From a virus: DNA of 26,035 nt. A program made the position numbers and the translations under genes. The notes below the pieces were generated by a model. That model did not search any database. It was not told the origin of the DNA and saw only the letters and a program-made list of their open reading frames with translations. The DNA is taken from positions 1-26,035 of the IMG/VR virus record IMGVR_UViG_3300025164_000464; one strand, 5' to 3'. Every line of letters begins with the position of its first letter. Positions within the stretch are counted from its first letter, which is position 1. Below, piece after piece: positions 11,566 to 26,035 of the stretch.

Positions 11566-11592
11566 GGGGGCGGCTAACGCCCCCTTCTTTTT
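11566..11592 (+). terminator. Rho-independent terminator after the capsid gene
   Basis: Stem GGGGGCG (11566-11572) pairs perfectly with CGCCCCC (11578-11584) around loop GCTAA, followed by TTCTTTTT (11585-11592). This is a textbook intrinsic terminator on the plus strand. It ends 1 nt before the GGAG binding site of the next gene, so it separates capsid expression from tail genes with probable partial readthrough. Confidence 0.93.
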
Positions 11593-21725: not shown

Positions 21726-21968
21726 TCAATGACCGTATTTCCTGACCAACGGTCTCATAATATCCACCACTTCCCGTAATTCGACAATCTCCTGATTCTG
21801 TCTCTCTGCCAACACAAGACAGCTATCGCGGGCTTCTATGAGAGATTGTGATTTTATTACATTTATTACAAGCATGGTCAAGAATATGCCACCGACTACA
21901 ATACTAGCCATGATAATTATCGCAACAAGGAGAATATTGTTCGATCCCAGATTTTTTAACCTTTCCAT
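21726..21968 (-). CDS. Small membrane protein with TM helix and coiled-coil tail
   Basis: An 80-aa protein, ATG 21968, with GAGGAT 5 nt upstream. A single hydrophobic helix (NNILLVAIIIMASIVVGGIF, about 10-29, extending to V-I-N-V-I) is followed by a charged helix (VLAERQNQEIVELREVVDIM). The layout is like spanin subunits, holin-type or membrane-adaptor proteins. It is not in the lysis cluster but on the convergent strand close to it. It could be an Rz-like or superinfection-exclusion protein; nothing in the sequence decides this. It lies 38 bp from the next gene downstream and 78 bp from the upstream one. Confidence 0.65.
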   Translation of the reverse strand: MERLKNLGSNNILLVAIIIMASIVVGGIFLTMLVINVIKSQSLIEARDSCLVLAERQNQEIVELREVVDIMRPLVRKYGH

Positions 21969-22046
21969 TTGATCCTCGTTTTCTCAGGTTTGCCGAATGT
22001 CTTTCCTATTGAAGACAAAAACCCAGCCAGATCAGGAGACCAATCT

Positions 22047-22598
22047 TTAATCCGATACCATACCAGCTTTCTTTCTTGCTCCGATGTGAAGCGATCTACG
22101 CAGATAGTCGAATAGTTGTTCTTCGGGCTTTGCCGGGATCCTGTTTTGATAGGCTTTTCTAAGCCTGTCGAGTCCTGTATTCCCGGCATTACAGTATTTC
22201 GCAGAGTAGTGCCATGAGCAAAGATACTCTCCAAAGGCAAGAATGGCCGCTGTTCTTCCGCAATGACATTTTGCTTGATTGGTTTCATGAATCCCCGCTT
22301 TTAGTTCAGTGAACTGATACGGTAAAGGGTTCTTGTACTTCTGCTTCCGTATGAACGGGCCGATATTCGGAAGCTCGGCCATGAACTTGCCCTTGGCATC
22401 GGCCAAATCTTTCTGCCTGTTCCAATCGCACAGATACGGGATAATCGTTTTCTCGAAGAACTCGACTGAATAGCCGGTCTTGTTCGCGATCCAGTTTACC
22501 CCATCCTCCCAGTCATCTACCTGACCGCGCCAGACAATGAGGAGTCTTTCACGTAGAAAGACTTTGAGTGCTTCCTTTTCTTCGTCGGTTCTAGCCAT
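22047..22598 (-). CDS. Unknown 183-aa protein with a Cys/His finger
   Basis: Start ATG 22598 (MARTDEEKEALKVFLRERLL); an in-frame TTG at 22610 is less likely. The N-terminus is helical, and the centre has FIRKQKYKNPLPYQFTELKA. The C-terminal half contains KCHCGRTAAILAFGEYLCSW followed by H, giving C-x-C-x12-14-C-x2-H, a small zinc-binding knuckle. I do not recognise the family. Similar small-finger proteins recur in this operon. An 8-bp perfect hairpin lies about 15 nt upstream of the ATG. A role in replication, recombination or host takeover would be guesswork. Confidence 0.7.
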   Translation of the reverse strand: MARTDEEKEALKVFLRERLLIVWRGQVDDWEDGVNWIANKTGYSVEFFEKTIIPYLCDWNRQKDLADAKGKFMAELPNIGPFIRKQKYKNPLPYQFTELKAGIHETNQAKCHCGRTAAILAFGEYLCSWHYSAKYCNAGNTGLDRLRKAYQNRIPAKPEEQLFDYLRRSLHIGARKKAGMVSD

Positions 22599-22612
22599 GG
22601 CAGAATCCAAAG

Positions 22613-22636
22613 CCTGACAGGGCTCGATCTGTCAGG
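22613..22636 (-). promoter_or_regulatory. Perfect 8-bp hairpin just upstream of a gene start
   Basis: CCTGACAG (22613-22620) and CTGTCAGG (22629-22636) are exact inverted repeats with an 8-nt loop. The stem ends 14 nt before the ATG at 22598 on the minus strand and is not followed by a T-run on either strand. It may be an operator, an RNA structure affecting initiation or a processing site. Confidence 0.5.
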
Positions 22637-22672
22637 AACTTTACATCAGCATCAGCCGCTGGCCTACTCCCG

Positions 22673-22801
22673 CTATTTAAACTTCCATTTTCCGCGTATC
22701 TTACGCCATACTAACATCCTTCGTATTCGTCGGCGGCGCAGTCTAACGACCCCCCAACCCCAGGATTTGCGAACCACGAGAAACCCACGTTTCCTGTTCA
22801 T
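22673..22801 (-). CDS. Very basic 42-aa ORF (Arg/Lys-rich peptide)
   Basis: ATG 22801 follows the stop of the previous small gene (TAA at 22803-22805) by 1 nt and runs 42 codons to TAG. It starts MNRKRGFLVVRKSWGWG and contains a run R-L-R-R-R-R-I-R-R. I count 18 Arg/Lys in 42 residues and no Asp or Glu. Such a composition is expected of RNA-binding peptides such as phage antiterminators of the N type, but can also arise by chance from GC-rich, CGN-rich DNA. No good binding site is visible, so it would depend on reinitiation. Too short to assign; kept as a candidate only. Confidence 0.35.
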   Translation of the reverse strand: MNRKRGFLVVRKSWGWGVVRLRRRRIRRMLVWRKIRGKWKFK

Positions 22802-22802
22802 T

Positions 22803-22967
22803 TTAGGCAAACTTGGCTAATGCCTCTCTTATCCAGCGAGCCAAACACCTGTTACAGTCGTGCATGTTGTCATGCTCGCAAGTAAGGTGCTTGCTGAGAA
22901 CATACTTCACAATCTTGTCGGTCTGGAGCCGACGCCGGTTACGTTGCGCTGTTTCCTGTTTCTTCAT
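22803..22967 (-). CDS. 54-aa basic Cys/His protein
   Basis: ATG 22967 in an ATGA overlap with the upstream zinc-finger gene stop (22964-22966); 54 codons to TAA at 22803. N-terminus basic (MKKQETAQRNRRRLQTDKIV), then YVLSKHLTCEHDNMHDCNRC and LARWIREALAKFA. The C-x-x-H/H-x-C-x2-C arrangement (C30, H32, H36, C38, C41) can hold one zinc. The exact stop-start overlap, sensible hydrophobic helix at the end and the zinc pattern support a real gene too short for ordinary detection. The role is probably nucleic-acid or protein binding; unproven. Confidence 0.65.
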   Translation of the reverse strand: MKKQETAQRNRRRLQTDKIVKYVLSKHLTCEHDNMHDCNRCLARWIREALAKFA

Positions 22968-23152
22968 TTGCGGCGCGGCTCATCCAGAACGTTGGGCGTC
23001 ACGCACGGAACCAATAAAACTTTTTGTCCGCGACAAACATCACACGTCCACGATGTACATGTTGATGTCCACTGGTGCACGTCACCGGCAACGTATGGCG
23101 GCTTTGACACAACTCCTTGGCCGTCACACTTCGGACATATCTGGTAATACAT
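22964..23152 (-). CDS. 62-aa zinc-ribbon protein, DnaJ-like CxxCxGxG
   Basis: ATG 23152 with GGAGG at 23157-23161 (strong, short spacing); the in-frame TTG at 23197 is less likely. It starts MYYQICPKCDGQGVVSKPPY and later has WTCDVCRGQKVLLVPC. Two C-x-x-C-x-G-x-G/K knuckles match half of a DnaJ-type zinc centre, a common form of phage mini-protein. No J-domain exists, so it is a stand-alone ribbon. It overlaps the 54-aa gene by 4 bp and lies 50 bp after a 194-aa gene, with its own strong binding site. Possible functions are nucleic-acid binding or modulation of host RNA polymerase; not shown. Confidence 0.75.
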   Translation of the reverse strand: MYYQICPKCDGQGVVSKPPYVAGDVHQWTSTCTSWTCDVCRGQKVLLVPCVTPNVLDEPRRK

Positions 23153-23201
23153 AGTGCCTCCGTTTACGCCCAACCATTCGCTATAAATGAGATTCAAGAT
23201 A

Positions 23202-23786
23202 TCAGGCTCTTAACTCCGACAAGACCTCTGCCGGTCTTTGCCCTTCCAAATCTCCCCGCAATGCTTTCACCATCCTGGAAATCTGTCCTACTCCTTCCGC
23301 ATCCCAATTCCTGATTGTGTCGTGTATCTCATCTTTCCTCTTTTCCCACCCATCCCGATCCCAATTCGCCGGCCACACTCCCGATCTCTCGGCATAAATC
23401 TGTAGCGGTAAATCCCGGTTTTGATGAATCCGCAAGCGATACCCTTCGAGCGAAGTTTCGGCAATTGCGATCATGCGGTAATGTTTTTTCGGATTGGAGA
23501 TAGGGAAAAGCTGAAATCGTAAATGAGAGGCAAGCATGGATTGTATTGTTCTGGAATCCTCTGGGCCATAGGAGAATTTGAGCCAAGCCCCCAAATGACC
23601 TGGGAGGATATTGATAGCCGCACAGATATAGCCAGCTTCAAGGAAATCCATCGTATTATCCCGTGAGAATCCCGATTTGTCGATCTTGGCAAGATAGGTC
23701 ATGTATTCGATAAACCCATTGTTTTTTTGCAAATATCCCCATGCCAAGGCATCGTGAATTGCATCTCTGGTATTACCTAGTTTCAT
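23202..23786 (-). CDS. Unknown 194-aa phage protein (possible late regulator)
   Basis: ATG 23786, overlapping the previous gene by 14 bp. Starts MKLGNTRDAIHDALAWGYLQ. The first half is helical, with AAINILPGHLGAWLKFSYGP (a W-L-K-F-S-Y-G-P motif), and it continues to LEGYRLRIHQNRDLPLQIYA and a final helix ISRMVKALRGDLEGQ. I recall W-x-x-x-x-Y-G-P in uncharacterised phage proteins placed after NinG-like genes, the location where lambdoid phages put the Q antiterminator. That is positional inference only; there is no zinc finger or recognisable DNA-binding motif. No membrane segments are seen. The C-terminal ~20 residues are charged. Confidence 0.7.
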   Translation of the reverse strand: MKLGNTRDAIHDALAWGYLQKNNGFIEYMTYLAKIDKSGFSRDNTMDFLEAGYICAAINILPGHLGAWLKFSYGPEDSRTIQSMLASHLRFQLFPISNPKKHYRMIAIAETSLEGYRLRIHQNRDLPLQIYAERSGVWPANWDRDGWEKRKDEIHDTIRNWDAEGVGQISRMVKALRGDLEGQRPAEVLSELRA

Positions 23787-24791: not shown

Positions 24792-25205
24792 TTATGATAA
24801 TTCAAGTTCGCACGCCTTATAATGTTCGATCTGTTCTTCCAGCCAGCCACGATCCCATTTTCCGGTTCCATGAGATAACCGTTTCAGCCGATCTATTTCC
24901 TCCGAGCCATAGGTGGAAAGCATCCACTCGTAATACCAAATCTTTCCCATTTCGCCATTCCAAAGCGGCTTGTTACATGCCTTGCATTGCGGATGTACGT
25001 TGAACCAGTCGAAATATACTCCAGCTCCTCTCGATCTTGGGATGAAATGTCCAGCGTCCAATTCTTTCCAGTGATAGCCTCGGTTACAACACACACATGT
25101 TACATGCCCGTCATGGTTGGCATAAACCTGGCGTACTACTCTGGACATGAGTTTCCATAGAGTATTTTTCAGGGTTGGAAGTTTTTTTAGCTTCTTCTTT
25201 TTCAC
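24792..25205 (-). CDS. NinG/Rap-like HNH recombination nuclease
   Basis: A 137-aa protein starting at GTG 25205 (GTGA overlap with the upstream gene). The very basic start (MKKKKLKKLPTLKNTLWK) and the core CVCCNRGYHWKELDAGHFIP (C37, C40, with D50-A-G-H53) followed by FNVHPQCKACNKPLW (H71, C74, C77, N78) form the zinc-HNH pattern of the bacteriophage NinG/Rap family, a structure-specific nuclease that resolves recombination intermediates. The C-terminal YYEWMLSTYGSEEIDRLKRL matches the family's helical end. NinG is usually about 200 aa, so this is a shorter form. It would act in phage DNA recombination. Good confidence in the family, lower in exact role. Confidence 0.8.
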   Translation of the reverse strand: MKKKKLKKLPTLKNTLWKLMSRVVRQVYANHDGHVTCVCCNRGYHWKELDAGHFIPRSRGAGVYFDWFNVHPQCKACNKPLWNGEMGKIWYYEWMLSTYGSEEIDRLKRLSHGTGKWDRGWLEEQIEHYKACELELS

Positions 25206-25580: not shown

Positions 25581-25829
25581 CTACTCTCTATTTGGCAATC
25601 CGGCTTCGTGCTTGCAGTTGTAGCACTGAGCGTTGTCAGGTGCCACTGTTACGGCAATGTGAACGCCAAGGTGGCGACCGAAAGCAGCTAATTGTTTAGC
25701 GTGCTTTTCACAAGCATCTACCGGCCCTGATGGCCAATGCACGGTATGGGTTGCTGGGTAGCCCAACAACTGCGTCGAGTCCGACACGCCTTCCGATGCG
25801 CCATCTGCTGCTTTCTTTTCTTCGGTCAT
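25581..25829 (-). CDS. 82-aa Cys/His small protein
   Basis: ATG 25829, in an ATGA overlap with the upstream gene. Acidic disordered start (MTEEKKAADGASEGVSDSTQ), then HTVHWPSGPVDACEKHAKQL and an end NAQCYNCKHEAGLPNRE. The C-x-x-H and C-x-x-C pair can hold one zinc (about C39, H42, C70, C73), a pattern I recall from unnamed phage mini-proteins. The start is set by the overlap; no other evidence. Gap of 49 bp to the next gene holds nothing I can name. Confidence 0.65.
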   Translation of the reverse strand: MTEEKKAADGASEGVSDSTQLLGYPATHTVHWPSGPVDACEKHAKQLAAFGRHLGVHIAVTVAPDNAQCYNCKHEAGLPNRE

Positions 25830-26035
25830 TTCAGGGACTCCTCGTCTTTGTTTCCGGCGTGCGGCTCACGCAGGGCGTTGGGCGTCAATGGGTTACCGTC
25901 GTCGATATCATGCAGGGCATCCATTACCGCCACTATCTTTGGGTTGCCGGTATCAACCTCTCCGTCCATGCCAATCTCAACCATCAACGCATTCGCAGCG
26001 GCATAGAGAGTGTCGAATTTACCAAGCAATTCAAC
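25826..26035 (-). CDS. Unknown protein, 5' truncated by the window edge
   Basis: The frame is open to base 26035 (V-E-L-L-G-K-F-D), so the TTG at 26029 need not be the start and the gene may begin outside. At least 69 residues remain: LLGKFDTLYAAANALMVEIG, then PKIVAVMDALHDIDDGNPLT, ending GNKDEESLK. Helical, with no zinc or TM. It is coupled by ATGA to the next gene. Function unknown. Confidence 0.6.
   Translation of the reverse strand, partial: VELLGKFDTLYAAANALMVEIGMDGEVDTGNPKIVAVMDALHDIDDGNPLTPNALREPHAGNKDEESLK

Follow-up and report, generated by a model that had tools for sequence, protein, structure and literature searches.

A conserved zinc-ribbon microprotein gene and two short candidate reading frames in a packed phage operon

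Three very short reading frames stand one after another on the minus strand of a viral genome fragment, each linked to the next at its start. This arrangement raises the question of which of them are genes, whether the linkage itself is meaningful, and what the products would do. The window, i.e., the whole stretch of DNA analysed, is a virus record of 26,035 bases. Its plus strand carries structural and lysis genes, and its minus strand carries a packed operon. PHROG matches in the window include a major head protein, a portal protein and an endolysin, and a NinG-like gene lies at 24792–25205. ARAGORN reported no tRNA in the region, and the Rfam search returned two hits only, both far below the gathering score. 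The features of the locus are as follows.

22964–23152, minus strand: P0001, gene of a 62-aa zinc-ribbon microprotein (CPKCDGQG...KPP...GD...W...CDVCRG), supported by its translation, 18 other viral loci, selection and a Shine-Dalgarno sequence
22803–22967, minus strand: P0002, an orphan 54-aa Cys/His reading frame in ATGA overlap with the ribbon gene, found only in near-identical contigs, with a weak Shine-Dalgarno sequence
22673–22801, minus strand: P0003, an orphan candidate reading frame of 42 aa, Arg/Lys-rich, joined to P0002 by a TAA-a-ATG junction, with no family or phage match and no Shine-Dalgarno sequence
23154–23182, minus strand: 29-nt leader with the Shine-Dalgarno sequence of the ribbon gene, identical at 28 of 29 nt to a leader in the sister contig L006 (194–222)
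22047–22598, minus strand: downstream gene of 183 aa from ATG (187 aa from a TTG at 22610), without an assigned function
23202–23786, minus strand: upstream gene of 194 aa, weakly matching a PHROG of Q-like antiterminators
22613–22636, no strand assigned: perfect 8-bp inverted repeat (loop of 8 nt) in the gap that separates the 42-mer from the next gene, without a strong T-tract

The lengths and coordinates of the three frames, the ATGA overlap and the TAA-a-ATG junction, all described in an earlier sequence-only reading, proved exact, and the reported composition of the 42-mer (18 lysines or arginines, no aspartate or glutamate) was confirmed. That reading had also presented the frames as a string of linked mini-genes. 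The description stands as anatomy, and as a special feature it falls away, being ordinary for phages. The PHANOTATE paper (PMC6853651) describes phage genomes as compact, with overlapping adjacent genes, and other loci examined here, e.g., L037, likewise contain chains of mini-genes. Dinucleotide shuffling of the whole window produced a chain of three ATG-initiated frames of 40–70 codons, linked at −4 to +2 nt, in 30 of 300 cases. With the limits set at 35–70 codons, such a triple occurs in 6 of 51 other loci examined versus 1 of 51 single shuffles. Taken as a whole, the three-frame finding goes beyond chance only in part; the ribbon gene alone does so by far.

The proposal that the first frame encodes a DnaJ-like ribbon was right, and the gene is conserved. 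Searches for related frames were run in rounds, yielding 8 loci first, 12 from an alignment of 4 members and 26 from an alignment of 8. From these 26, eight were dropped as identical or near-duplicate, namely the sister contigs L003–L006, which are near-identical to the window, and the duplicates L010, L018, L033 and L035. The resulting alignment (A3, n = 19) contains P0001 and members from 18 other distinct viral loci with the shared core CPxCxGxG...KPP...GD...W...CxxCxG. Fourteen positions are invariant (C6, P7, C9, G11, G13, K17, P18, P19, G23, D24, W28, C37, C40 and G42), and only four of them are cysteines. The second half-site of P0001 itself reads CxxCxGxK, not CxxCxGxG.

Among the 12 loci that align to the window without gaps, nucleotide identity across the core is 50–71% and dN is 0.15–0.60. 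Synonymous divergence is saturated and not computable in 7 of the 12 pairs; in the other five, dN is 0.22–0.52 compared with a dS of 1.1–2.6. Judged from these alignments, the ribbon is a protein family under purifying selection. The start signal is also the strongest among the trio, with a Shine-Dalgarno duplex of −9.5 kcal/mol. The family membership, conservation, selection and start signal of P0001 are thus established.

The genomic surroundings of the ribbon are diverse. Its neighbours include RusA (L030), terminase small subunits (L036, L040 and L042), a DNA methyltransferase (L007) and an exonuclease (L041), and since this neighbourhood varies between phages, the context gives no single pathway. 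In tblastn searches of isolated phages with four different ribbon members no significant match was obtained, those of L039 being at chance level only. The literature search on small DnaJ-like zinc proteins of phages returned nothing specific, which does not show the family to be unpublished. The ribbon family is new and conserved, and of an ordinary kind. Kept by no fewer than 18 environmental phages that otherwise differ, this unnamed family of zinc microproteins, with its invariant non-cysteine core, offers a sound starting point for finding a phage-host interaction. The same ribbon protein with the same neighbours occurs in a contig of a Methanoregulaceae MAG (L027, 892–1080) and in a viral contig (L032, 5004–5192), which either points to an archaeal host or results from erroneous binning.

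The comparison with known families places the ribbon near several small zinc folds. Searched against Pfam, PHROG and NCBIfam, P0001 fits no model confidently. The DnaJ cysteine-rich model (PF00684, DnaJ_CXXCXGXG) is matched at E 0.01 or better by 18 of the 19 members, the Pfam anti-TRAP model by 11, phrog_6060 by 10 and phrog_127 by 7, none of these matches being convincing. P0001 itself scores 20.7 bits against PF00684 (gathering cut-off 32.7) and 14.7 bits against anti-TRAP, PF15777 (cut-off 32). In a profile search of the PDB, the ribbon matched E. coli DnaJ with an E-value of 8e-4. The AF2 model of P0001 (pLDDT 72, pTM 0.46) resembles DnaJ, BSD2, anti-TRAP and the zinc finger of Q-lambda, with a best Foldseek E-value of 0.084 and a best VIA Z of 3.6. 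On the predicted model, the fold looks like that of DnaJ, anti-TRAP or the Q finger, though all these fold scores are weak.

Each of these likenesses has its limits. The central cysteine-rich domain of DnaJ contains four CxxCxGxG motifs and binds two zinc ions. The ribbon shares the CxxCxGxG type of zinc half-site, but it has two half-sites only, i.e., one pair instead of two, lacks the J-domain and carries the invariant KPP/GD/W insert. Anti-TRAP binds TRAP and blocks its RNA binding. Anti-TRAP/RtpA (PF15777, NF058604) is, like the ribbon, a stand-alone DnaJ-like zinc microprotein of 50–60 aa, and it provides the fold match with Z 3.6, whereas nothing at this locus ties the ribbon gene to TRAP or to trp genes. 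The Q antiterminators (phrog_127, phrog_304, phrog_6060 and Q-lambda) have a similar zinc finger, with weak profile and fold matches; however, Q proteins are much longer, and the ribbon stands alone, in varied neighbourhoods.

The best explanation of the locus, to which a probability of about 0.5 is assigned, is a stand-alone gene for a zinc adaptor or inhibitor, accompanied by two passenger candidate frames. The two CxxCxG half-sites would clamp one zinc ion, as the motif and the fold match suggest, and the invariant K-P-P, G-D and W residues between them may form a surface for binding another protein. Ribbons of the DnaJ, anti-TRAP and BSD2 type bind other proteins, and for this reason P0001 is read as a protein-binding zinc adaptor. 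Its most likely role would be that of a small adaptor or inhibitor which, in the course of infection, attaches to a protein of the host or of the phage. Translation of P0001 starts from its own Shine-Dalgarno sequence, visible in the leader. Translation of P0002, if it occurs, would be coupled to that of the ribbon gene through the ATGA overlap.

The standing of the two passengers is different. Neither P0002 nor P0003 has a family in Pfam or PHROG or a match in phage records. P0002 was found only in the four near-identical contigs (L003–L006). The search for conserved frames in relatives, successful for the ribbon, gave no relative of either short frame beyond these contigs, and the segment 22673–23152 has no differences between them and the window. 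Further records were reached through the terminase, giving 25 loci, of which 23 were searched together with L015 and L016 (L044 and L064 were excluded, as they belong to the same contigs as L003 and L006). P0002, P0003 and the 194-aa protein were each found in 0 of 25 and the ribbon profile in 2, both already known; such absence is weak evidence, because many of these records are short fragments. A gapped peptide-motif scan for P0002 returned six stretches, four in the near-identical contigs and two in frames without a listed reading frame of at least 35 aa. Codon usage is uninformative as a coding test, since even P0001, a certain gene, has a low score.

The possibility that P0002 and P0003 are not genes, and that 22600–22960 is a non-coding or regulatory stretch following the ribbon gene, has to be weighed against the passenger reading. 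Both frames are orphans, the triple chain recurs in one-tenth of the window shuffles, and the Shine-Dalgarno sequence is absent for P0003 and weak, at a distance of 12 nt, for P0002, although such start signals fit translational coupling. The perfect inverted repeat at 22613–22636, for which 0.04 matches are expected in shuffles even when up to three mismatches are allowed, also favours a regulatory stretch and could be an operator or a weak terminator. Removing both frames would, however, leave a 365-nt hole in an operon where other neighbours are separated by −80 to 169 nt. An ATG at the junction followed by 54 open codons, as in P0002, arises in just 1.9% of shuffles (34% for such a length anywhere). 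For 22590–22810, the RNA fold of the transcribed strand does not surpass that of shuffles (z 0.61), and the other strand gives a mild signal (z −1.79). The non-coding reading is considered rather unlikely, and P0002 is probably a gene. For P0003, an ATG frame of 42 or more codons that starts no further than 10 nt from the 54-mer stop arises in 2.4% of shuffles (5.7% with GTG and TTG included), and a frame of that length anywhere in the 192-nt stretch in 28%. It would be either the product of coupled low-level translation or a spacer. Both frames matter little until their translation is shown.

The basic composition of the 42-mer had led to the suggestion that it binds RNA, e.g., as an antitermination peptide, with the terminator at 11566 proposed as a test site. 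An N-like arginine-rich peptide would agree with its composition. Of the 290 open 42-codon segments read out of frame in the window, only 1 reaches it (at least 18 K/R and no D/E). Against this, the 42-mer has no family and no relative among the sequences searched, no Shine-Dalgarno sequence, a start and length that chance could give, and no variation on which selection could be tested. It also contains tryptophans and hydrophobic stretches, which are atypical of arginine-rich RNA-binding motifs. The terminator-like hairpin does exist at 11566–11584 on the plus strand, with 7 G-C pairs and a T-rich tail. It belongs, however, to the structural block, on the strand opposite to the 42-mer, and nothing ties the two together. 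The suggestion found no support, and an N-like role is held to be very unlikely. If the operon encodes any antiterminator, the 194-aa upstream gene would be, on weak evidence from profile matches, a better candidate. Its protein matches phrog_304 (Q-like) with an E-value of 0.022 and phrog_3373 with 0.01, both weakly, and 15 matches in phage records have E-values of 2–7 only.

These matches allow a further alternative to the stand-alone adaptor, in which the ribbon and the 194-aa protein form a split Q-type antiterminator, with the Q core and the zinc finger on separate chains. Besides the phrog_304 match, the ribbon reaches phrog_127 (Q-like) at E 0.081, and of 8 ribbon members compared with this model, 7 had an E-value of 0.1 or lower. 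The fold matches also include the zinc finger of Q-lambda. Every one of these scores is weak, however; the Q-like matches of the ribbon may reflect CxxCxGxG alone, and no Q-like hit was obtained among ten neighbour proteins from 9 other ribbon loci. The single-sequence structure model of the 194-aa protein (pLDDT 41) is too poor for use. A split Q is improbable, though less so than the N-like peptide.

The remaining alternative concerns the origin of the ribbon gene and depends on sites resembling the attC recombination sites of integron cassettes, listed below.

22991–22997, plus strand: R'-type box GTTGGGC in the 3'-terminal part of the ribbon gene, flanked on the left by L''/L'-like arms (about 22915–22990); decayed, no R'' box
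23166–23174, plus strand: R''-type box ACGCCCAAC, shortly before the start of the ribbon gene, with 9-nt complementarity to the box at the 3' end
25761–25883, plus strand: attC-like site with R'' GCCCAAC and R' GTTGGGC, L''/L' pairing and three extra bases in L''

At the window site 25761–25883, the R boxes agree with RYYYAAC and GTTRRRY and are complementary at 7 of 7 positions, and the DNA fold has a z of −3.28. The arm score is 30; in 100 shuffles of the window, sites with a score of at least 30 had a mean of 0.02. The same position separates the window from three sister contigs. L003, L005 and L006 carry a block of about 1.83 kb (L006 447–2276) that is absent from the window and ends at G|TT of GTTGGGC, read on the window plus strand (25877/25878). 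Between the window and L006, 3 of 161 bases differ right of the junction and 0 of 5,879 left of it. L006 contains four attC-like sites within 2 kb (440–502, 817–901, 1082–1139 and 2270–2392), while 100 shuffles of this locus gave a mean of 0.09 and a maximum of 2. Complementarity between the start and the end of a cassette is present in three L006 intervals and spans 9, 10 and 14 nt. The polarity of attC is read from the extra bases in L''. By this rule the top strand corresponds to the window plus strand for the window site and for L006 440–502, 1082–1139 and 2270–2392; the polarity of 817–901 is ambiguous, as the script scored it opposite and its first extra base agrees with the other sites. 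Neither the window nor the four sister records, all possibly incomplete, yielded an integron integrase or any PF00589 protein.

These sites lead to the tentative proposal, well short of an even chance, of an integron-type cassette array within a phage regulatory operon, in which genes run against attC polarity, sister contigs gain or lose the 1.83-kb block at G|TT, and the ribbon is an old cassette. As the genes oppose attC polarity, they would be expressed by the leftward transcription of the phage itself. An attC arm would encode the C-terminus of the ribbon, the attC loop would contain the ATGA of the next gene, and the exact overlap of the two frames would thereby be a trace of cassette biology. 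For the ribbon gene in particular, entry as an integron-type cassette with a since decayed attC, its end boxes being the remains, is similarly doubtful. It would account for the 9-nt complementary boxes at the gene ends, equal in length and letters to those of a neighbouring L006 cassette that also shares the leader (28 of 29 nt), for the 85% identity over 27 nt between the ribbon 3' end and the arm and box of 25761–25883, and for the attC-type arms adjoining the ribbon box. Yet the putative ribbon attC (22915–22998) has R' with a degenerate R'' instead of two R boxes, its arm score of 22 is tied at ranks 4–7 of 38 boxes and is not significant alone, and its DNA fold z is only −1.40. No enrichment of attC sites was seen at the other ribbon loci (5 versus 3.2 expected, 18 loci). 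As an attC remnant, the ribbon's own boxes are only suggestive.

The attC-like cassettes are a side finding that deserves separate follow-up. The study of Qi et al. (2023, PMC9892861) describes attC sites in phages, reporting 17 CALINs as well as virulent phages with working sites. The array described here resembles those CALINs in the R/L box architecture, in several attC per phage and in the absence of a found integrase. It differs in that the reading frames oppose attC polarity (clear at three of the four L006 sites), that sister contigs differ by a whole block, and that the attC-like sites are predicted from sequence. With the block present or absent beside attC-like sites, the sister contigs would offer a natural case of cassettes being exchanged within a phage population.

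Several minor observations accompany these results. Downstream of the short frames, a 110-aa reading frame (21956–22288, minus strand) covers, in a different frame, the 3' half of the 183-aa gene, and may reflect an alternative start or a frameshift. The near-identical 29-nt leader precedes two unrelated genes, the ribbon gene (window 23154–23182) and a 91-aa gene (L006 194–222). The 27-nt segments 22975–23001 and 25861–25887 of the window, 85% identical, encode similar C-terminal peptides (TPNVLDEP and TPNALREP) of two different proteins, and both coincide with an attC-type arm and box. In L006, the near-identical peptides DRWKRRSRTYEGIARAMADQWG and DRWKERSRTYAGIAAAMAAQWG, encoded at 1149–1733 and 2175–2327, flank a 190-aa reading frame, as if it had been inserted.
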